Assembly: GCF_000708285.2 (NCBI RefSeq)
Contig: NZ_JAUG01000011.1
Span: 1 to 64,000, forward strand
DNA: 64,000 nt
Source of the DNA: Pedobacter borealis DSM 19626
Lineage (GTDB): Bacteria; Bacteroidota; Bacteroidia; Sphingobacteriales; Sphingobacteriaceae
Direction of reading: 5' to 3'
The translations under genes were made by a program, and so were the position numbers. The notes under the pieces are model-generated. The model saw only the letters and a program-made list of their open reading frames with translations, was not told the DNA's origin and did not search any database. Positions 37,227 to 49,291 of this stretch are shown in pieces. Within the stretch, counting starts at the first letter, position 1. Every line of letters begins with the position of its first letter.

Positions 37227-37673
37227 ATGCTGTCCAAAAAAACAAAGTATGCCATAAAAGCGCTTGTTGCGCTTGGTAAAAATTTAGATAAACCACCAAT
37301 GCAGATTTCGAAAATTGCAGAGGAGGAGCATATCCCGAAAAAATTCCTGGAGCAGATTCTGCTCGATCTGCGTAACGCTGGCTTTTTATACAGTAAAAAA
37401 GGGGCAGGCGGTGGTTACAGCCTCAACAAAAAACCTGAAGAGATTTTATTGGTACACGTAATGCGTGTAACGGATGGGCCTATTGCCATGGTTCCCTGTG
37501 CAAGTTTAAATTTTTATCACAAATGTGATGAATGTGTAGACGAAAAAACATGCGGAATCAGAAGCGCCTTTATCGATGTTAGAGATGCTACCCTTAAGGT
37601 TTTAACCGAAACCAGCATTGCTGACGTAATCGGTAGAGAGGACAATCTGAAAATCGGTATCGTTAATTTATAA
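37227..37673 (+). CDS. Rrf2-family transcriptional regulator
   Basis: 148 residues. The winged helix (MLSKKTKYAIKALVALGKN...EEEHIPKKFLEQILLDLRNAGFLYSKKGAGGGY) is typical of Rrf2 proteins such as IscR and CymR. Cysteines C91, C100, C103 and C109 in the dimerisation region could bind an Fe-S cluster as in IscR, though spacing differs from C-x5-C-x5-C. It precedes the sulfate assimilation operon by a 1.6-kb repeat island. Because CymR-type Rrf2 proteins govern cysteine synthesis genes, it is a reasonable candidate regulator of that operon; that link is inference. Confidence 0.9.
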   Translation: MLSKKTKYAIKALVALGKNLDKPPMQISKIAEEEHIPKKFLEQILLDLRNAGFLYSKKGAGGGYSLNKKPEEILLVHVMRVTDGPIAMVPCASLNFYHKCDECVDEKTCGIRSAFIDVRDATLKVLTETSIADVIGREDNLKIGIVNL

Positions 37674-37968: not shown

Positions 37969-38524
37969 GTGCGCTGGGCATGGCAATCAGCTATAGGGTG
38001 CAAGTCCCGAACACACTTTGCAGTAGGAAGTGTTAGCCAATAGCAAGGGTGTCGTGGGCGACTGCGAATCCGAAGGAAGCTGGCGGCAAATATGGGGGCC
38101 TACGAACAGGAACTGTATATAAGGCGAGGTGATATGGGTGATGTTGCATGACAAACAAAAGCCCTATACTGCACAGAATATCACTACGTAGATACAGGGG
38201 CCACATCCATAGAAAGCGGATTGCCTTACCCCAGGAGATCTGAATGAGCTCTGTCAAGTGTAAGCGCGATTACAGGAGAGGAAACATTTAGCGGGGACGT
38301 TCAATGGCTCATTTAGAAGTCAGCAGCGGTCGTAGTACTGTATCACAGATGAAAAAAAAGAGGAGCTGAGCCGAGCCGTGCAACCAGTGGGCACAATGCC
38401 TGACAACAGGAGAATACTACCGGTTGTTAAGAGATACTATTTCAACAAACCGCCGTATGCCGAACGGCACGTACGGTGGTGTGAGAGGACAGATAGGGAA
38501 ATAATCCCTATCTTCCTACTCGAT
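37969..38524 (+). mobile_element. ORF-less group II intron
   Basis: A 556-nt ribozyme. The 5' end GTGCGCTGG fits the GUGYG rule. Domain I carries GGGTGCAAGTCCCG and AGCAAGGGTGTC followed by GAATCCGAAGGAAGCTGGCG, phrases characteristic of bacterial group II introns. Domain V is 38450-38479: CCGCCGTA pairs with TACGGTGG, the inner stem TGCC/GGCA has a GAAC tetraloop, and a two-base CG bulge follows; the catalytic triad reads CGC. Domain VI (AGATAGGGA/TCCCTATCT) precedes the branch-type A at 38518 and the 3' end CTACTCGAT. No reverse transcriptase frame exists: domain IV is short with several stops, so it depends on a maturase elsewhere or is dead. It sits just after the palindrome at 37931. Confidence 0.88.
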
Positions 38525-39093: not shown

Positions 39094-39131
39094 AATAAAT
39101 TACGACTATTCCTATATACTTTATATATTTG
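39094..39131 (+). promoter_or_regulatory. Sulfur-operon promoter segment, shared with cobA-2
   Basis: A 38-bp segment starting AATAAATTAC and ending ACTTTATATATTTG matches 48420-48457 at 34 positions. It ends in TATATTTG, a perfect TAnnTTTG -7 box. The conserved ATTCC.ATA just upstream could be an operator. The leader ORF starts 41 bp after the end of the box. Confidence 0.7.
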
Positions 39132-39171
39132 GCGTATGAATTTCAATTTTATACCTAACAAGTTAATTACT

Positions 39172-39204
39172 ATGCAAATGATGTGCTGTTGTAAAACGCA
39201 ATAA
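39172..39204 (+). CDS. Cys-rich leader peptide of the sulfur operon (MQMMCCCKTQ)
   Basis: An eleven-codon ORF, ATG CAA ATG ATG TGC TGT TGT AAA ACG CAA TAA, between the promoter box and the sulfite reductase gene. Three consecutive Cys codons after two Met codons are what a ribosome-stalling attenuation leader for a cysteine/methionine pathway would need. Its ATG is 41 bp from the -7 box, while the cobA-2 ATG is 40 bp from the identical box, so it occupies the normal first-ORF position. A terminator-like hairpin (39241) follows 36 nt after its stop. It is too short for any homology argument; function is inferred from codon content and position. Confidence 0.6.
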   Translation: MQMMCCCKTQ

Positions 39205-39240
39205 TAGGAGCCTACAGATAATTTTAAGTATAAAATATGG

Positions 39241-39270
39241 AATGCTTCTCGGTAACAGGGAAGCATTTTT
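39241..39270 (+). terminator. Leader terminator (attenuator) before sulfite reductase
   Basis: AATGCTTCTC and GGGAAGCATT form a ten-base-pair stem with one G-U pair, loop GGTAACA, followed directly by TTT (five T in all). It lies in the transcribed leader, 22 bp before the sulfite reductase ATG. I found only a weak competing pairing upstream (AGGAG with the CTTCT part), so the antiterminator is not defined. Confidence 0.6.
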
Positions 39271-39291
39271 AGAATAAAGCTAACAACACAT

Positions 39292-41382
39292 ATGCAAAGT
39301 TTCAGAACAGAACTCGAAAATCCGATTGTCGAGCAGGACATTATCGATTTAGAGAATAAGATTAAAGCTTTTAGAGATGGAACCATCCACGACGAAAAGT
39401 TTAGAAGCCTCCGTTTAGCACGCGGTGTTTACGGTCAAAGACAACCTGGCGTACAAATGGTGCGCATTAAATTGCCTTTTGGTAAGGTAACTTTTAAGCA
39501 GTTGTTACGTATTGCAGATATTGCTGATGAGTATGGAAGTGGAAATTTACACTTAACCACCCGTCAGGATATTCAGATTCACTATGTGAGTTTAGACCGT
39601 ACTCCAGAGCTTTGGGCTAAATTAGAGCAGGATGATATTACGCTTCGCGAGGCTTGTGGAAATACGGTACGTAACGTAACGGCATCTCCAAATTCTGGAA
39701 TCGATGCTGAAGAACTTTTTGATGTTTCGCCTTATGCCCAAGCGGTATTTGCGTACTTTTTGCGTAACCCGATCTGTCAGGAAATGGGTAGAAAGATTAA
39801 AATTTCATTTTCTTCGAGCGATAGAGATACTGCCTTTAGCTACATTCACGATTTAGGTTTTATTCCTAAAATTAACGAAAAGGGCGAGCGCGGATTTAAA
39901 GTTTTGTTTGCCGGTGGTTTAGGTGCACAGCCATTTTTGGCCAATGCGGTACACGAATTTTTGCCTGAAGATCAATTGATTCCGTTTACAGAATCTGTTC
40001 TTCGTGTGTTCGACCGTTATGGCGAACGTACCAACCGTAACAAAGCACGTTTAAAATACCTGGTTCAAAAATTAGGTTTAGAAGAAGTTTTACGTTTGGT
40101 TGCCGAAGAGCGTATTGCCAATAAAGTAAAAACCTTTAAAATAGATATTAATACTGTACCTCAGCCAACTTTACCTTTAGCGCAAGAATATCCTGCGGTA
40201 GAAATATTAAACGAAGCCCATTACAAACATTGGTTAGCCACTAACGTAATTGAACAGAAACAAGCTGGGTTTTATGGCGTTTATGTAAAAGTTCAGGTGG
40301 GCGATATCAAAACAGATAAAGCAAGGGCTTTTGTTGATGCCATCAGATTATATGTGGCTGATGAAATCAGGATTACCCAAAACCAGGGCTTGCTGCTAAA
40401 GTTTGTTCGTAAAGAGGCATTACCTTCATTATATGCCGCTTTAAATAAAATTGGTTTTACTACGGCAGGTTTTGATAGTTTAGCTGATATTACCACTTGC
40501 CCTGGTACCGATACCTGTAATTTGGGTATTTCGAACTCAATGACTCTGGCCGAAGTGTTGGAAGAGGTAATTTATACTGATTTCCCTGAGTTTATCTACG
40601 AGAAAAACATCAAGATCAAAATCAGTGGATGTATGAACTCTTGCGGTCAACATGGCTTAGCTGAGATTGGTTTCCACGGAAGTTCGGTAAAGGCTGAAGG
40701 AAAAGTTGTTCCGGCAGTTCAAGTGATGTTAGGTGGTGGAACTGTAGGTAATGGCGTGGGTAGAGTAGCAGAACGTGTAATTAAAGTGCCTTCTAAAAGG
40801 GCTACAAGTGTTTTACACTTCATTTTAAATGATTTTAAAGCCAATAACCTGGAGGATGAGAACTTTCACCAATATTATGATAGAAAAGGTAAAGACCATT
40901 TTTATCAGTTGCTAAAACCGCTGGCCGATTTAACTAACCTTAAAACAGAAGAATTTGTAGATTGGGGACATGTAGAAGAATTTGTAACTGCAATTGGTGT
41001 AGGAGAGTGTGCTGGTGTTGTAATTGATTTGGTAGCTACCTTGTTGTTGGAGGCCGATGAAAAATTTGATTGGGCGAAACAAAACCTGGAGAAAGCTGCT
41101 TATGCCGATGCCATTTATCATACTTATAGCACTTTTGTAAGCGCTGCAAAATCTTTACTGTTAGATAAAGGTGTAAACAGCAGCACACAGGTAGGTGTGA
41201 TCCGCGAATTTGATAACCATTACGTAGAAACTGGAGAATTTAATTTATCGACCAATTTCTCTGACCTGGTGTTACAGATTAACAAAAACGAACCAACAGC
41301 TGAGTTTGCACAGAAATATTTTGAAGAAGCAAAACAATTTTTAAATCAGATTAAGGAAAAAAGGGCCGTATTAGCGAAATGA
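39292..41382 (+). CDS. Assimilatory sulfite reductase hemoprotein with HEPN-like C-terminus
   Basis: 696 residues. Two ferredoxin-like half-domains and two siroheme/4Fe-4S domains: LPFGKVTFKQL, LHLTTRQDIQIHYV, the substrate Arg region RNVTASP, then cluster Cys C403 and C409 (CPGTDTC) and C447 and C451 (CMNSC). It reduces sulfite to sulfide with electrons from ferredoxin; no flavoprotein CysJ is present here, and cobA plus siroheme genes follow. Residues about 545-690 (AKQNLEKAAYADAIYHTY..AAKSLLLDKG) are an extra helical, HEPN-like domain. Nitrite reductase is the alternative, but the cys genes downstream make sulfite far more likely. First gene of the operon after the leader. Confidence 0.92.
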   Translation: MQSFRTELENPIVEQDIIDLENKIKAFRDGTIHDEKFRSLRLARGVYGQRQPGVQMVRIKLPFGKVTFKQLLRIADIADEYGSGNLHLTTRQDIQIHYVSLDRTPELWAKLEQDDITLREACGNTVRNVTASPNSGIDAEELFDVSPYAQAVFAYFLRNPICQEMGRKIKISFSSSDRDTAFSYIHDLGFIPKINEKGERGFKVLFAGGLGAQPFLANAVHEFLPEDQLIPFTESVLRVFDRYGERTNRNKARLKYLVQKLGLEEVLRLVAEERIANKVKTFKIDINTVPQPTLPLAQEYPAVEILNEAHYKHWLATNVIEQKQAGFYGVYVKVQVGDIKTDKARAFVDAIRLYVADEIRITQNQGLLLKFVRKEALPSLYAALNKIGFTTAGFDSLADITTCPGTDTCNLGISNSMTLAEVLEEVIYTDFPEFIYEKNIKIKISGCMNSCGQHGLAEIGFHGSSVKAEGKVVPAVQVMLGGGTVGNGVGRVAERVIKVPSKRATSVLHFILNDFKANNLEDENFHQYYDRKGKDHFYQLLKPLADLTNLKTEEFVDWGHVEEFVTAIGVGECAGVVIDLVATLLLEADEKFDWAKQNLEKAAYADAIYHTYSTFVSAAKSLLLDKGVNSSTQVGVIREFDNHYVETGEFNLSTNFSDLVLQINKNEPTAEFAQKYFEEAKQFLNQIKEKRAVLAK

Positions 41383-41486
41383 GATTTGAGACAATAGATA
41401 TGAGATTTGAGCACGGCAGACGCTAAACGCCATGCGCCAAACAACTCTTCATCCAGTCGTTCAAAATTCAATAATTAAAAAGAAAC
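41383..41486. other. Intra-operon spacer with word-like repeats
   Basis: Between the sulfite reductase and cobA are GAGATTTGAG twice and GACGCTAAACGCC, the latter related to GGCGTTTAGCGCC near 62263. Such spacers occur repeatedly in this operon and around 62243 and 63060. Confidence 0.5.
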
Positions 41487-42257
41487 ATGGTTAATCAAAA
41501 TAAAGAATCAAAAATAACCCTTTTAGGTGCAGGTCCTGGAGATCCTGATTTATTGACATTGAAAGGGGTTAAAGCGTTGCAAACTGCTGATGTGGTTTTG
41601 TACGATGCCTTAACCAATGAAGCTTTATTGGAGCATGCTCCGGCAGAAGCCATTAAGGTTTATGTAGGAAAACGTTCAGGTGAGCATTCTTATCCTCAGG
41701 ATACCATTAATAAATTAATGATTGATTATGCCTTAAACTACGGCCACGTAGTGCGTTTAAAAGGTGGCGATCCTTTTGTTTTTGGCAGGGGATACGAAGA
41801 GTTGGATTATGCTGCGTCTTATAGCATTCCGGTAAGCGTAATCCCGGGTATTTCGAGTTCTATCGGTGTACCAGGCTTGCAGCAGATTCCGGTTACACAC
41901 CGCGGCATGAGCGAAAGCTTTTGGGTAATTACCGGAACAACCACTTCTGGAGAAGTTTCAGCAGATATTTACCAGGCTGCACAATCTAATGCGACTGTAG
42001 TGGTACTTATGGGACTTAAAAAATTACCTAAAATTGTAGAGATTTTTAAAGCTGCAGGTAAACACCATTTACCAACCGCTGTGGTTCAGAACGGATCGGC
42101 AGAAGATGAAAGATTGGTTGTTGGCGTGGTTGAAACCATAGAAGGTTTAGTGCAACAAGAAAATATTAAAGCACCTGCTTTATTAATTTTTGGAGAAGTT
42201 GTATCATTACATCCATCATTTAAGAAATTAATTAAACAATATGCAAGTATTGCCTAA
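41487..42257 (+). CDS. cobA: Uroporphyrinogen-III C-methyltransferase
   Basis: 256 residues, SAM-dependent, converting uroporphyrinogen III to precorrin-2 for siroheme. All family blocks are intact: LLGAGPGDPDLLTLKG near the N-terminus, VLYDALTNEALL, RLKGGDPFVFGRGYEEL, VIPGISSSIGVPGLQ and IPVTHRGMS. This is the catalytically orthodox copy; a diverged paralogue is at 48497. It supplies cofactor for the sulfite reductase upstream. Its 3' end overlaps the next ORF by 17 bp, so the two are translationally coupled. Confidence 0.95.
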   Translation: MVNQNKESKITLLGAGPGDPDLLTLKGVKALQTADVVLYDALTNEALLEHAPAEAIKVYVGKRSGEHSYPQDTINKLMIDYALNYGHVVRLKGGDPFVFGRGYEELDYAASYSIPVSVIPGISSSIGVPGLQQIPVTHRGMSESFWVITGTTTSGEVSADIYQAAQSNATVVVLMGLKKLPKIVEIFKAAGKHHLPTAVVQNGSAEDERLVVGVVETIEGLVQQENIKAPALLIFGEVVSLHPSFKKLIKQYASIA

Positions 42258-43752
42258 CCAACCTGATAATGCAGCATCTTTTTCTGAAGAAGAAAAAGGT
42301 AACCAGCTCTTTCCAGTTTTTGTAAAGCTGAACAAGCTGCGTACATTATTAATTGGTGCAGGAAATATTGGGCTCGAGAAATTAACTGCGATCGTAAATA
42401 ATAGCCATAGTGCTACCATTACGATTGTTGCAGAGCTAGTATCACCAGAAGTTTATGCGCTTATCGCAAATTATCCGCTGATAAAAGTTAAACAGAAAAG
42501 TTTCGATGTAGATGATCTGAATGACATTGACATCGTTTTCGCGGCAACCAATAACAATATTTTAAATGAAGAGATTAGAAAGGTGACGCATGAGCGTGGC
42601 CTGTTGATCAACGTGGCTGATAAGCCAGAACTTTGCGATTTCTATCTGGGGTCAATTGTTCAAAAAGGCGATTTAAAGATTGCCATTTCTACAAACGGCA
42701 AATCGCCAACGATAGCCAAACGTTTAAAACAGATTTTAAATGAAGGTTTGCCTGCGGAGCTTGATGAAACGCTACAGAATATGAGTGCTTTACGTCAAAC
42801 TTTAAATGGCGATTTTTCGGCAAAGGTTAAAAAACTAAATAAGGTTACCCAAAGTTTAATTAACCCTAAAAAAAGTTTTGCCGAACAAAATATTAAGTGG
42901 TTAATCTGGGCGGCCTCAGTTTTACTAATTGGTGCTATCGGGTTTTCTTTGTGGAATACCGAGCCAGAATTTCAGCGTTTCCTGATCAATATTGATCCTT
43001 TATTCTATTGGTTTTTAGGTGCTGGGTTTTTATTCGCATTAATTGATGGTGCAATTGGCATGTCGTATGGTGTTACTACTGCATCGTTCTCATTAGCAAT
43101 GGGTTTACCTCCTGCATCGGCAAGTATGGCCATCCACATTTCTGAGGTAATGAGCAATGGAATTGCAGGTTGGATGCATTACCGTATGGGTAACGTAAAC
43201 TGGAAATTATTCAAAATTTTAATCATTCCTGCTATAATCGGTGCAGTTTTAGGTGCCTATATTCTTTCTTCATTAGAACATTATAGTGCTTATGTTAAGC
43301 CTATCGTGGCGGTTTATACCTTGTTTTTAGGCGGAGTCATTTTAATGAAAGCTTTCAATGTGAAGAGAAAAAAAGCCGATCAAAAAATTAAAAAAATTGG
43401 TTTATTGGGCTTTGTTGGTGGTTTTATCGATGCTGCCTTTGGCGGTGGCTGGGGTTCAATCGTATTATCAAGCTTAATTGCAGGTGGCAGGCATCCATTG
43501 TTTTCTTTAGGTACCGTAAAAATCAGCCGCTTTTTTATTGCCACCTTAAGTTCGCTTACATTTTTCACCATGTTAGGTGGCAAACACTGGGAAGCTGTTG
43601 TGGGCTTGATTATCGGTAGTGCAATCGCATCACCAATAGCCGCAAAAGTATCGAACAAAATTTCTGCAAAAACCATTATGGTTGCCGTAGGGATTATTGT
43701 GATGATTGTGAGTTTGCGCAGTATAATTATGTTTATTTTAAAATTAATATAG
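42241..43752 (+). CDS. Siroheme synthase (Met8-like) fused to TSUP/TauE permease
   Basis: 503 residues. Residues 20-200 match the precorrin-2 dehydrogenase/ferrochelatase part of CysG and Met8p: LFPVFVKLNKLRTLLIGAGNIGLEK (Rossmann), VFAATNNNILNEEI, LINVADKPELCDFYLGSIVQKGDLKIAISTNGKSPTIAKRLK. After a linker comes a TauE/SafE (TSUP) sulfite/sulfonate exporter-type permease with about eight helices: FLFALIDGAIGMSYGV and LLGFVGGFIDAAFGGGWGSI are the two internal-repeat signatures. Thus one polypeptide makes siroheme and moves a small sulfur anion. Sulfite or sulfate is the likely substrate; direction is unknown. Confidence 0.9.
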   Translation: MQVLPNQPDNAASFSEEEKGNQLFPVFVKLNKLRTLLIGAGNIGLEKLTAIVNNSHSATITIVAELVSPEVYALIANYPLIKVKQKSFDVDDLNDIDIVFAATNNNILNEEIRKVTHERGLLINVADKPELCDFYLGSIVQKGDLKIAISTNGKSPTIAKRLKQILNEGLPAELDETLQNMSALRQTLNGDFSAKVKKLNKVTQSLINPKKSFAEQNIKWLIWAASVLLIGAIGFSLWNTEPEFQRFLINIDPLFYWFLGAGFLFALIDGAIGMSYGVTTASFSLAMGLPPASASMAIHISEVMSNGIAGWMHYRMGNVNWKLFKILIIPAIIGAVLGAYILSSLEHYSAYVKPIVAVYTLFLGGVILMKAFNVKRKKADQKIKKIGLLGFVGGFIDAAFGGGWGSIVLSSLIAGGRHPLFSLGTVKISRFFIATLSSLTFFTMLGGKHWEAVVGLIIGSAIASPIAAKVSNKISAKTIMVAVGIIVMIVSLRSIIMFILKLI

Positions 43753-43754
43753 TG

Positions 43755-44453
43755 ATGGAGAACCTAGAGGAGATAAAAGCAGCACTGGCAGGTTTAAATA
43801 CAATTGATAAACTGAAATTTTTAGCAGATAAATATGCCGGTCGTATTATATTTTCGACCAGTTTTGGTTGGGAAGACCAAGCGATTACGCATTTAATTTT
43901 TTCAAATAATATTCCAATTAAGGTTTTTACTTTAGAAACCGGACGTTTGTTCCCAGAAACTTATTACGTTTGGAACCGAACCCTGGAAATTTATAACAAA
44001 CCCATTCATGCCTATTATCCACAAAATGAGCTGTTACAGGATATGGTAAATACAAAAGGCCCGAGCAGCTTCTACGAGTCGGTAGAGAATAGGAAAGAGT
44101 GCTGTTACATCCGTAAAATCGAACCTTTAAAAAGAGCATTAAAAGGTAATGAGATATGGGTAACAGGAATCAGGGCCGATCAAAGTGCCAACCGTGAAGA
44201 TATGCACGATTTAGAATGGGACGAAGGTAACCAATTGGTTAAATTCCACCCTATTTTCGATTGGACTTTAGATGATGTGAAAGCATACATTAAAGAAAAC
44301 AACATTGTTTACAATACCCTGCACAATAAAGGTTTCCCGAGTATAGGTTGCGCCCCATGTACAAGAGCAGTACAGCCAGGCGAAGATTTTAGGGCCGGAA
44401 GATGGTGGTGGGAAGACCAAAGTAAAAAAGAATGCGGTTTACATGCTACTTAA
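43755..44453 (+). CDS. cysH: Adenylylsulfate (APS) reductase, thioredoxin-dependent
   Basis: 232 residues; the GTG at 43752 overlaps the previous stop and the adjacent ATG 43755 is the better start. PP-loop-type fold with FSTSFGWEDQ near the N-terminus. The cysteine pairs KECCYIRK and GCAPCTRA bind a 4Fe-4S cluster and mark the APS-using class rather than the PAPS class; the catalytic Cys is in the C-terminal ECGLHAT. It reduces APS to sulfite and AMP. The absence of an APS kinase (cysC) in the operon agrees with that specificity. Confidence 0.94.
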   Translation: MENLEEIKAALAGLNTIDKLKFLADKYAGRIIFSTSFGWEDQAITHLIFSNNIPIKVFTLETGRLFPETYYVWNRTLEIYNKPIHAYYPQNELLQDMVNTKGPSSFYESVENRKECCYIRKIEPLKRALKGNEIWVTGIRADQSANREDMHDLEWDEGNQLVKFHPIFDWTLDDVKAYIKENNIVYNTLHNKGFPSIGCAPCTRAVQPGEDFRAGRWWWEDQSKKECGLHAT

Positions 44454-44636
44454 GGTATAAGGCTGAAGGCTAAAAGATAGAAGGTTTATATCCTTATTCA
44501 ATGAAACGTTGGAATATCCCAACATTCAAACCTTCCAAACATTTTTAACAACAATAACAACAACAAATATAACAAGTTGAATAATTGAACGATTTAACAT
44601 TCCATCATTCAACATTTAAACATTCCAACAATTCAA
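44454..44636. other. Intra-operon spacer of CATTC/AACATT word repeats
   Basis: 183 bp between cysH and cysD with no gene. It has GGCTGAAGGCTAAAAG and runs of short related words (CATTCAA, AACATTCC, CCATCATTCAACATT). No hairpin followed by T is seen, so transcription should pass. Confidence 0.5.
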
Positions 44637-45542
44637 ATGAGTACATATAATTTTGATTATTTAGATGAACTAGAGGCCGAGGCCATTCACATTTTACGTG
44701 AAGTAGCAGGTCAGTTTGAAAAACCAGCCTTATTATTTTCGGGTGGAAAAGATTCAATTACTTTAGTTCGTTTGGCAGAAAAAGCTTTCCGTCCGGGGAA
44801 ATTTCCTTTTCCATTAGTACATATTGATACAGGCCATAATTTTGAAGAAACCATCACTTACCGCGATCAGATGGTAGAGCGGATTGGCGAAAAATTAATC
44901 ATCGGTTCTGTGCAAGAATCAATAGATCAAGGTAAAGTTGTAGAGCAAACCGGTAAAAATGCCAGTAGAAATGCTTTGCAGACCGTAACCTTGCTTGATA
45001 CCATTGCAAAATACCAGTTTGATGCTTGCATCGGTGGTGCGCGTAGAGATGAAGAAAAAGCAAGGGCTAAAGAACGTATTTTCTCTGTTCGTGATGAATT
45101 TGGCCAATGGGACCCAAAACGCCAACGTCCTGAACTTTGGAATATTTACAACGGTAAAATCCACAAAGGAGAAAATATCCGTGTGTTCCCGATCAGTAAC
45201 TGGACGGAGCTTGATGTTTGGAATTATATCCGCAGAGAGAAAATAGATCTTCCAAGTATTTATTTCTCGCACGAACGCGATTGTATTACCAGAAATGGAC
45301 AGCTGATGGCTGCTTCGCCATTTTTAAATATGGATGGTGAAGATGTGGTGGAACGCAAACAAGTTCGTTTCCGTACGGTGGGCGATATGTCTTGTACTGC
45401 TGCGGTAGAATCGGATGCCACTTTGATTGATGATATTATTGCTGAAATCAGCGCTTCTAAAATTTCAGAGCGTGGTGCCCGTATGGATGATAAAGTTTCT
45501 GAAGCCGCAATGGAAGACAGAAAAAAGGGGGGATATTTTTAA
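44637..45542 (+). CDS. cysD: Sulfate adenylyltransferase subunit 2
   Basis: 301 residues, the usual CysD length. The ATP-pyrophosphatase PP-loop LLFSGGKDSITLVRLA is near residue 32, with HIDTGHNFEETI, ARAKERIFSVRDEFGQWDP and SCTAAVESDA following. With CysN it makes APS from ATP and sulfate, the first step of assimilation. It is 97 bp ahead of cysN. Confidence 0.96.
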   Translation: MSTYNFDYLDELEAEAIHILREVAGQFEKPALLFSGGKDSITLVRLAEKAFRPGKFPFPLVHIDTGHNFEETITYRDQMVERIGEKLIIGSVQESIDQGKVVEQTGKNASRNALQTVTLLDTIAKYQFDACIGGARRDEEKARAKERIFSVRDEFGQWDPKRQRPELWNIYNGKIHKGENIRVFPISNWTELDVWNYIRREKIDLPSIYFSHERDCITRNGQLMAASPFLNMDGEDVVERKQVRFRTVGDMSCTAAVESDATLIDDIIAEISASKISERGARMDDKVSEAAMEDRKKGGYF

Positions 45543-45639
45543 AGGAGTATCAAGATTAAAGTATCGAGTAGCAAGATTAATAACCGTCTTGATACTTGAT
45601 ACTAATTACTTAATACTTATGTCTTAATACTACAATAAA
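45543..45639. other. Intra-operon spacer of ATACTTGATACT repeats
   Basis: GTATCAAGATTAAAGTATCG and GATACTTGATACTAATTACTT can pair partly. The same CTTGATACTTGATACTA words occur at 62314-62358 between the HlyD and ABC genes, about 17 kb away. Confidence 0.55.
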
Positions 45640-46890
45640 ATGAACATATTAAAATTTTTCACAGCAGGCAGTGTAGATGATGGTAAAAGTACCTTAATCG
45701 GCCGTTTGTTATACGATACAGATTCTATTTTGGCCGATCAATTAGAAGCTTTACAGAGCTCTAACCGTAAAAATGATGACGGAACAATAGATTTAGCCAT
45801 TTTAACCGATGGTTTAAGAGCAGAGCGCGAGCAAGGTATTACCATTGACGTAGCTTATAAATACTTTCAGACCGAAAAACGCAAATTTATTATTGCCGAC
45901 ACGCCTGGTCACATTCAATATACAAGAAATATGGTTACAGGTGCTTCTACAGCCAACCTGGCCATTATCTTAATCGATGCCCGTAACGGCGTGGTAGAAC
46001 AGACCATCCGCCACTCGTATATTGTTTCGTTATTGGGTATCAAACATGTAGTGGTTTGTATCAACAAAATGGATATGGTTGACTATAGCGAAACCGTTTA
46101 TAGTGCAATTATAGAAAAATACAAGGTTTTGGCGCAGCAATTAAAGCTTGCTGATGTAACCTATATTCCGGTTAGTGCCTTAAAAGGCGATAATATTGTG
46201 CAAAATTCAGGTAACATGGATTGGTACGAAGGCGAGAGTTTGTTACATTTCTTAGAAAAGGTAGATACCGATAATTTAGATAAATCGCAATTAGCCCGTA
46301 TGCCGGTGCAGTGGGTAATACGTCCACAAACAGAAGAATTACACGATTACCGTGGTTATGCAGGTAGGGTATTAAGTGGCACCTTTAACTTAAATGATAA
46401 AGTTACCGTATTGCCTAGTGGTGCGAGTTCTACCGTCGAAAAAATTGAATTTTTTGATCAGACACCAGATGCAGCTCACGCTGGCCAGTCGGTAATTATT
46501 CACTTGAAAGATGATGTAGACATTAGCCGTGGCGATACCATTGTAAATGCTTCGGCATTGCCACAGGAATCGAAACTGATTGAAGCAGACCTTTGCTGGA
46601 TGGATGGCCGTGCGTTAGATACTTCTATCATGTATAATATTCAGCACAATAGTAAAATTACGCGTTGTAAAATCAGCGAGATTCTGCACAAAGTTGACAT
46701 CAATACACTTGAAAAACATGCTGCTGACGAATTTAAATTGAATGATATCGGTCGGGTGATTATTAAAACCGCTGATGCTTTAGCATTCGATTTATACGAT
46801 GATAACCGGGCAAACGGTTCAGCTATTTTGGTCGATACGCGTACAAATTTAACCGTTGGCGCTTTAATGTTCAGGGCAGCAGTAGAATAA
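45640..46890 (+). CDS. cysN: Sulfate adenylyltransferase subunit 1 (GTPase)
   Basis: 416 residues. G-domain blocks are intact: G1 FTAGSVDDGKSTLIGRLL, switch I EREQGITIDVAY, G3 DTPGHIQY, G4 CINKMD. EF-Tu-like beta domains follow (LHDYRGYAGRVLSG). GTP hydrolysis drives APS formation by CysD. It is the CysN-only form without a fused APS kinase, consistent with a direct APS reductase upstream. Last gene of the operon; a possible terminator lies at 47141. Confidence 0.96.
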   Translation: MNILKFFTAGSVDDGKSTLIGRLLYDTDSILADQLEALQSSNRKNDDGTIDLAILTDGLRAEREQGITIDVAYKYFQTEKRKFIIADTPGHIQYTRNMVTGASTANLAIILIDARNGVVEQTIRHSYIVSLLGIKHVVVCINKMDMVDYSETVYSAIIEKYKVLAQQLKLADVTYIPVSALKGDNIVQNSGNMDWYEGESLLHFLEKVDTDNLDKSQLARMPVQWVIRPQTEELHDYRGYAGRVLSGTFNLNDKVTVLPSGASSTVEKIEFFDQTPDAAHAGQSVIIHLKDDVDISRGDTIVNASALPQESKLIEADLCWMDGRALDTSIMYNIQHNSKITRCKISEILHKVDINTLEKHAADEFKLNDIGRVIIKTADALAFDLYDDNRANGSAILVDTRTNLTVGALMFRAAVE

Positions 46891-48419: not shown

Positions 48420-48457
48420 AATAAATTACTACAATTCCCATAGACTTTATATATTTG
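48420..48457 (+). promoter_or_regulatory. Promoter segment shared with the sulfur operon
   Basis: A 38-bp match (34 identities) to 39094-39131, ending in the same ACTTTATATATTTG. The cobA-2 ATG lies 40 bp after it. No leader ORF or terminator hairpin is present here, unlike the sulfite reductase leader. Confidence 0.7.
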
Positions 48458-48496: not shown

Positions 48497-49291
48497 ATGA
48501 TTTTGAATAAAGTAGAAAAAGCGAACATTGAACCAAGAATTACTTTAATAGGTGCAGGTCCTGGCGACCCGGATTTATTTAGTTTAAAAGGTGTTAAAGC
48601 ATTAAAAACAGCTGATGTTGTTTTATATGATGCAAATGTGAACGAGGCTTTATTGTGTCATGCGCCAGATGGTATACCGAAAGTTTATGTGGGCAAACGT
48701 TCAGATGATGAATCGTTTTCTCAGGATGCGGTTAACAAATTGATTGTTGATTACGCTTTAAACTACGGTCACGTGGTACGTTTAAAAAGTGGCGATCCGT
48801 TTTTCTTCGCAAAAGGATACGAAGAAATAGATGCTGCAGAGTCGTACAGCATCCCCACCGAAATTATTCCAGGTATTTCGAGTGCAACCGGTGCGCCAAG
48901 TTTGCAAAAGATCCCGATGATCTATAAAGATTTGAGTGAAAGTTTTTGGGCAGTAACAGGAACAAACTCAAAGGGCGAAATCTCTGAAGATTTATATATC
49001 GCAGCAAAAACGAAAGCAACTATTGTTGTTTTAAACGGAATTGAAAAAGTAAAAGAAATTGCAGCCATATTTCAGGCAGAAAATAAAAACCTTTTGCCAG
49101 TAGCCGTAATCCAAAATGGCTCTACACCAGAAGAAAAAATTGCAGTGGGTATTGTTGATACGATTGCTGAAATTGTTGAAGATAAAAGAATAACTGCCCC
49201 GGCTTTATTGGTTTTTGGAGATGTGGTTTCATTACACCCACAGTTTCAGCCAATCCGCGATTTTTACGAAATTATCGCCGAAGAGTACTAA
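48497..49291 (+). CDS. Diverged uroporphyrinogen-III C-methyltransferase paralogue
   Basis: 264 residues, aligning end to end with the cobA product at 41487. It keeps the SAM-binding LIGAGPGDPDLFSLKG and IPGISSATGAPSLQ, but two signature blocks are altered: KGGDPFVFGRG became KSGDPFFFAKG, and PVTHRGMS became PMIYKDLS. Loss of the THR motif and one Gly questions normal activity; it may act on another tetrapyrrole step or be regulatory. It shares a promoter segment with the sulfur operon, so it is probably induced with it. A strong terminator follows at 49330. Confidence 0.85.
   Translation: MILNKVEKANIEPRITLIGAGPGDPDLFSLKGVKALKTADVVLYDANVNEALLCHAPDGIPKVYVGKRSDDESFSQDAVNKLIVDYALNYGHVVRLKSGDPFFFAKGYEEIDAAESYSIPTEIIPGISSATGAPSLQKIPMIYKDLSESFWAVTGTNSKGEISEDLYIAAKTKATIVVLNGIEKVKEIAAIFQAENKNLLPVAVIQNGSTPEEKIAVGIVDTIAEIVEDKRITAPALLVFGDVVSLHPQFQPIRDFYEIIAEEY

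Follow-up and report, generated by a model that had tools for sequence, protein, structure and literature searches.

A putative cysteine-codon attenuator before the sulfate assimilation operon of Pedobacter borealis and its relatives

Operon and promoter

The stretch of DNA analysed (64,000 nt of Pedobacter borealis DSM 19626, contig NZ_JAUG01000011.1, positions 1–64,000) is referred to as the window. An operon running from sulfite reductase to cysN was located at 39292–46890 (+ strand) by Pfam matches: sulfite reductase (39292–41382), SUMT (from 41487), a siroheme synthase N-domain fused to TauE/SafE (from 42241), and, read from gene order together with Pfam family, two PAPS-reductase-family proteins taken as cysH (from 43752) and cysD (from 44637), followed by cysN (from 45640), all on the + strand. 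By its Pfam content the operon supplies sulfide for cysteine. The ATG of sulfite reductase was confirmed at 39292; the protein shares 99% identity with its counterpart in Pedobacter sp. ISL-64 and groups with that of Pedobacter sp. AK013. Two peculiarities of the gene content are recorded here: the siroheme synthase NAD-binding domain and the TauE/SafE transporter domain are fused (42241–43752) inside a sulfate assimilation operon, and some 7 kb beyond the first uroporphyrinogen methyltransferase gene (41487) there is a second one (48497–49291), which has a separate copy of the promoter box described below.

For comparison, 80 sulfite reductase loci of the family Sphingobacteriaceae (Pedobacter, Mucilaginibacter, Olivibacter) were collected and 260 nt upstream of each was read; the loci are related to one another, and counts over them are not independent. 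The promoter (39112–39131, + strand) is formed by a conserved box, CTATATACTTTATATATTTG, that includes a TAnnTTTG −7 element; the letters of this element, TATATTTG, were found at 39124–39131, where the initial annotation had placed them. The box was recognisable in 78/80 family loci, many of those without a leader included. At three mismatches or fewer, one other genome site was obtained (48438–48457), before the second siroheme methyltransferase gene. An Rrf2-family regulator gene (37227–37673, + strand; PF02082) is situated upstream, and in 48/80 related loci such a gene is present in the same orientation. CTATATACTTTATATATTTG likely serves as a binding site for a regulator and overlaps the −7 element, with the Rrf2-family protein as a candidate binder; since the genome has just two copies of the box and the Rrf2 gene recurs upstream, a transcription-factor layer of control probably exists besides the attenuator, acting as a possible second layer on the promoter, binding not having been shown for either assignment. 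The box is partly palindromic (TATATA-CTT-TATATA), and both of its sites precede siroheme/sulfite genes. Group II intron pieces (38052–38224 and 38448–38524; RF02001, RF00029) lie between the Rrf2 gene and the operon; with less than 500 nt in all, they are an ORF-less intron or a remnant. A Flavo-1 RNA match (RF01705; 37837–37902, minus strand) was barely over the gathering score.

Leader ORF

An ORF of 22 amino acids, MNFNFIPNKLITMQMMCCCKTQ, extends from 39136 to 39204 (+ strand), ends with a stop codon at 39202–39204, and carries the putative regulatory codons TGC TGT TGT (Cys-Cys-Cys) at 39184–39192 (+ strand); two to four Cys codons stand at the matching place in most relatives. An eleven-codon ORF (39172–39204, + strand) containing these codons had been described earlier and is present as stated, reading ATG CAA ATG ATG TGC TGT TGT AAA ACG CAA TAA (MQMMCCCKTQ, 10 aa plus stop). 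Its ATG is internal to the longer ORF and in frame with it, but the conserved start is located 36 nt upstream, and judging from this conservation the leader peptide probably starts at 39136 rather than 39172. The ATG at 39136 is exactly 4 nt 3' of the TAnnTTTG box, a spacing kept in 42/60 leader-bearing family loci. In Flavobacterium psychrophilum the sigma-A box TAnnTTTG occupies −12 to −5 (PMC9723704); from this placement and the 4-nt spacing, +1 is predicted on the A of ATG 39136, so that the ORF would be leaderless. The prediction for the mRNA of the sulfite reductase leader is made from the consensus, with no mapped 5' end, and leaderless initiation has not been shown for Pedobacter. In P. 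suwonensis (L005) the conserved ATG is lost, a later in-frame ATG is kept and the Cys run is intact. Codon usage for Cys in the leaders was TGT 195, TGC 134.

Terminator and antiterminator

An intrinsic terminator was obtained by folding at 39239–39270 (+ strand; −14.6 kcal/mol), with a stem of 12 bp (39239–39250 with 39258–39269) and a T5 run (39266–39270); the letters of the hairpin (39239–39269) are GGAATGCTTCTC-GGTAACA-GGGAAGCATTTT. A hairpin with a T run had been proposed before sulfite reductase as a ten-base-pair structure at 39241–39270, and both elements were recovered. The 3' end of the hairpin is 22 nt before the sulfite reductase ATG, which is left uncovered; sequestration of the start codon was rejected on this ground. 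Rfam gave no match above the gathering score in the leader (39100–39292), and a T-box or riboswitch was rejected accordingly.

The antiterminator had been called not obvious. One can be drawn: in the MFE fold of 39184–39257 the 5' arm AGGAGC (39206–39211, + strand), whose position is kept in relatives, pairs with GCTTCT (39244–39249, + strand), which is half of the terminator 5' arm, so that the two pairings are mutually exclusive. The arm AGGAGC begins 2 nt past the stop codon and 16 nt past the first nucleotide of the third Cys codon of the run. An A/T-rich hairpin (39218–39238, + strand), nested in the antiterminator by fold, recurs in related Pedobacter. Taken alone, the window copy is weak, having only 6 bp with one G-U and a duplex no better than shuffles (p = 0.54); the case for the antiterminator rests on comparison with relatives, through duplex energies, covariation in Mucilaginibacter and the fixed distance from the Cys codons, all given below. 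A 1:2 pause hairpin over the regulatory codons appeared in several folds (e.g. L003, L008, L050, L075); these are folds only, without a covariation test.

The energy of the antiterminator duplex, computed for leaders with a Cys-Cys doublet, was compared with dinucleotide shuffles: z = −10 for the family (51 leaders) and z = −15 for other families (37 leaders); p ≤ 0.05 was reached in 30/39 leaders outside the family. The leaders are mutually related, and these z values are not independent-sample statistics. In Mucilaginibacter the arm (G)(T/C)GGCTG overlaps the last codons of the leader and has CAGCC(A/G)C as its partner; pairing held in 90% of cells, covariation was 0.303 vs 0.199 shuffled (0/500 shuffles as high), compensating changes were G-C to A-U and U-A to C-G or A-U, and slid registers gave at most 46% paired. 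In a second Pedobacter group (alignment A2) the helix was kept (87.5% paired) with covariation not above shuffles, and it was therefore not counted as support.

Counted from the first nucleotide of the final Cys codon in the run, the distance to the antiterminator arm was 17.0 (sd 4.0) nt in the family and 17.4 (sd 4.2) nt in other families; it fell within 13–23 nt in 86% and 84% of leaders, respectively, against 28% and 25% of shuffles (best shuffle set 43% and 46%). The distance from stop to arm varied from −42 to +7 nt, i.e., from a stop ending 42 nt after the arm start to one ending 7 nt before it. The fixed Cys-to-arm geometry is common to leaders with the stop before the arm (Pedobacter) and to those with the arm inside the ORF (Mucilaginibacter, other families). 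This held distance, which is geometry and not a measurement, is regarded by us as the strongest comparative evidence for the putative mechanism.

Distribution of the leader

In most Pedobacter and Mucilaginibacter loci an ORF with 2–4 Cys codons at a fixed place follows just 3' of the promoter box; lack of a conserved Cys run in related leaders, which would have refuted the initial proposal, was not what the alignment gave. A terminator (hairpin of −9 kcal/mol or better plus T run) was called in 57/60 family loci with a leader vs 1/17 without; the sole leader-free locus with a terminator is P. terrae (L007), in which the start codon and the Cys run are gone and the T run is shortened. Presence of the leader goes with presence of the terminator, and absence with absence. 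Most of the 17 loci without a leader keep the promoter box, set closer to the sulfite reductase ATG. On the sulfite reductase tree at least 7–8 changes of state were required for leader presence; several Sphingobacteriaceae lineages lack the leader, and some close relatives (L036, L039, L046) have no Cys run, both points speaking against the attenuator reading. The losses in several lineages provide matched natural comparisons.

Control through translation or Rho has been put forward for the polycysteine ORFs of mycobacteria, and here it would make the hairpin incidental; upstream of the mycobacterial cys operons, poly-Cys ORFs do occur without an intrinsic terminator (PMC1262725; Canestrari 2020, known from its citation in PMC13236596). 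For the present leaders this explanation is very improbable: a strong hairpin with a T run is present and disappears when the ORF does, and the 22-nt gap noted above leaves the ATG outside the hairpin.

From a class sample of 296 genomes drawn, 71 had this sulfite reductase and 61 were examined. In 29/61 class loci a terminator preceded by an ORF having two or more late Cys codons was found within 450 nt; in a few more a Cys leader stood about 1 kb upstream with another gene in between. Cys leaders with terminators before sulfite reductase were thus found in the family of the window and about 13 others (about 14 in all). A census of residue doublets in those short ORFs that precede a terminator, taken over the 450 nt upstream of sulfite reductase with no selection for Cys, gave Cys-Cys as the commonest doublet (44/80 family and 28/61 class loci) and Met-Met as the runner-up (15/80 and 13/61). 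When 40 regions of up to 16 kb were scanned on both strands (1.19 Mb in total) for a Cys-Cys ORF plus terminator, 31 matches were obtained, 26 of them on the sense strand and no more than 1.3 kb before sulfite reductase. Because Cys-Cys leads an unselected census and 26/31 scan matches lie before this gene, the Cys leader is not a chance occurrence.

A constitutive terminator with a chance ORF, regulation being left solely to the Rrf2-type protein at the promoter, could account for the conservation of the promoter box even at loci without a leader, for the frequent neighbourhood of the Rrf2 gene and for the loss or absence of the leader in several lineages. It leaves the position of the ORF, its Cys content, the antiterminator geometry and the recurrence in about 14 families without explanation, and is scarcely tenable.

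Proposed mechanism

The element is very probably a cis-acting, ribosome-mediated transcription attenuator sensing charged tRNA-Cys, possibly together with Met. Sequence and comparison establish the parts, their conservation, the mutual exclusivity of the two folds, the Mucilaginibacter covariation and the geometry; it is inferred, in the absence of RNA, ribosome or reporter data, where transcription starts, that the leader is translated, that ribosomes stall and transcripts terminate, and that the system answers to cysteine. The attenuation idea put forward in the initial annotation is, with corrections, well supported to that extent, through the recurrence of leader, terminator and antiterminator, the covariation and the fixed geometry, there being no expression data.

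RNA polymerase would start at or next to the leader ATG and a ribosome would begin the 22-aa peptide. With ample Cys-tRNA the ribosome would reach the stop at 39202–39204 and cover AGGAGC, which follows just behind; the terminator (39239–39270) could then fold and transcription would end before sulfite reductase. With scarce Cys-tRNA the ribosome would stall at 39184–39192 and leave AGGAGC, 16 nt downstream, free to pair with GCTTCT in the terminator 5' arm; no terminator would form and the sulfate assimilation operon would be transcribed. A ribosome held at the Cys codons is expected to end just short of the arm, and one reading on to run into or over it. In this way these Bacteroidota probably switch on sulfur assimilation by sensing the speed of ribosomes on cysteine codons. 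Cysteine is among the rarest residues. Its rarity, taken with the 1/f argument on signal sensitivity (PMC1183508), means that Cys should give a very sensitive signal.

The model requires transcription-translation coupling, not shown for Pedobacter. In Bacteroidia, initiation is not driven by Shine-Dalgarno sequences, and coupling has been little studied. Working attenuation in this class, if true, would itself be evidence of close transcription-translation coupling.

Other leaders in the same genome

Further leaders were located in the genome of P. borealis: MNINTNIISNLIIVISQKRGGNRCV before ilvD (L162, −238 to −160 relative to ilvD; Ile/Val, IISNLIIVI; terminator −17.3 kcal/mol, antiterminator duplex −14.3), MKNFNTYYFGYFYYFSESRG before the prephenate dehydratase gene (L163, −163 to −100 relative to the gene; Phe/Tyr, YYFGYFYYF; terminator −24.6, antiterminator −22.9) and MNLTLNHHLHLHHRR before hisG (L161, −134 to −86 relative to hisG; His, HHLHLHH). 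In the last case terminator and antiterminator were weak by fold, and the element is a His-rich leader only. Leader-peptide attenuation looks, from these three, like a general habit of this genome. No Cys leader was present upstream of cysE and cysK in the same genome.

The Ile/Val and Phe/Tyr leaders also bear on the possibility that the Cys-rich nascent peptide itself is the sensor (by metal, sulfide or heme binding, or redox) and arrests the ribosome. Short Cys-rich peptides are chemically reactive, and copper sensing via a nascent exported protein that controls translation has been reported (PMC9973294). Against a peptide sensor, leaders of matching design exist for residues other than Cys, the genes downstream are those of the cysteine pathway, and the Cys residues differ without constraint in how many there are, how they are spaced and what flanks them (CC, CCCC, CYCC, CMCMCC, HCMY). 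A free Cys pattern with a held distance from Cys codon to arm fits codon-level sensing, and arrest by the peptide is judged very unlikely.

Relation to known systems

With the trp, his, leu, ilv and phe attenuators of E. coli and Salmonella the Pedobacter leader shares a short ORF rich in codons of the end product, an intrinsic terminator, a mutually exclusive antiterminator and a fold decided, by inference, by the position of the stalled ribosome. It differs in that Cys (with Met) is read, in its Bacteroidota promoter, in the probably leaderless ORF, in a 1:2 pause hairpin that is not clearly conserved, and in the tandem copies of some relatives.

With the cys leaders of Actinobacteria, the mycobacterial ones included, poly-Cys codons near the stop, downstream sulfur assimilation genes and a leaderless start (predicted for Pedobacter) are held in common. 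The poly-Cys leaders of actinobacterial cys operons have no conserved terminator hairpin (PMC1262725), whereas in the Pedobacter leader, from another phylum, a conserved terminator and an antiterminator are present; the two groups are, by inference, probably convergent. That the mycobacterial leaders are leaderless and cysteine-responsive is taken from the title of Canestrari 2020 as cited in PMC13236596. The uORFC-8-2 motif before cysS of Rhodobacterales has two tandem Cys codons in a uORF and an intrinsic terminator, and read-through has been proposed for it on shortage of Cys-tRNA (PMC8632094); the Cys-codon pair, the terminator and the proposed shortage read-through are shared, the phylum and the gene (cysS vs sulfite reductase) are not.

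Within the phylum, leader-peptide attenuators have been inferred before amino acid biosynthesis operons of F. psychrophilum, with conserved pheA and hisG elements; the main text, as far as the source was available, mentions no leader for cysteine or sulfate assimilation (PMC9723704). For B. thetaiotaomicron, sORFs resembling leaders have been described (PMC7366714). The open-licence literature (supplements excluded) yielded no Cys attenuator from Bacteroidota; Cys-sensing leader peptides were met there only in Actinobacteria (without terminators) and in cysS of Rhodobacterales. The sulfite reductase leader is best read as classical ribosome-mediated attenuation, unreported in that literature for this phylum and regulon. 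The comparison adds a complete attenuator of classical design, putatively governing sulfate assimilation, that recurs in about 14 families of Bacteroidia.

Methionine codons and tandem leaders

Met codons (start excluded) exceeded shuffled leader DNA 4.4-fold in the family and 6.1-fold in other families. For Cys this measure would be circular, the leaders having been chosen for Cys; Met was not selected. The leader might then answer to both residues, a stall at either codon in MQMMCCC favouring read-through. Such dual sensing would suit a pathway that feeds both sulfur amino acids, and it agrees with the enrichment of an unselected residue, with typical strings such as MMCCMMC and MCMCMCMCCC, with Met-Met as second doublet and with the absence of internal Met from the ilvD, prephenate dehydratase and hisG leaders. 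On the other hand, a preference for ATG may have different causes, such as codon context, reinitiation or base composition, and the Met codons of Mucilaginibacter and of the window mostly precede the Cys run, farther from the arm. Dual sensing is possible and on balance doubtful; attenuation on Cys codons, with Met as an optional addition, remains the preferred reading.

Two Cys leaders in series, both equipped with a terminator and mostly also with an antiterminator of their own, were found upstream of sulfite reductase in 13 loci from seven families (L105, L109–L111, L113–L115, L122, L124, L134, L135, L143, L149). A TAnnTTTG box was present 9–19 nt before leader 1 in 13/13 of these, and at no locus did the interval from terminator 1 to leader 2 contain such a box; transcription would therefore reach the second leader only by reading through the first attenuator. 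Tandem attenuators are not described for uORFC-8-2 in the available part of PMC8632094, nor were tandem leader-peptide attenuators found in the open-licence literature (supplements excluded). If confirmed, the tandem series and the joint use of Met with Cys could make the Bacteroidota leaders a variant of the classical scheme. The full proposal, by which sulfate assimilation of Bacteroidota would be governed by attenuators reading Cys and Met codons jointly, with at least seven families placing a pair of complete attenuators, one after the other, under a single promoter, RNA polymerase passing two Cys checks, and with the leader ORF of Sphingobacteriaceae leaderless, is advanced tentatively and falls only a little short of an even case. 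The tandem leaders offer a naturally occurring test case for whether the response becomes sharper with two consecutive attenuators; the window itself carries one attenuator copy.
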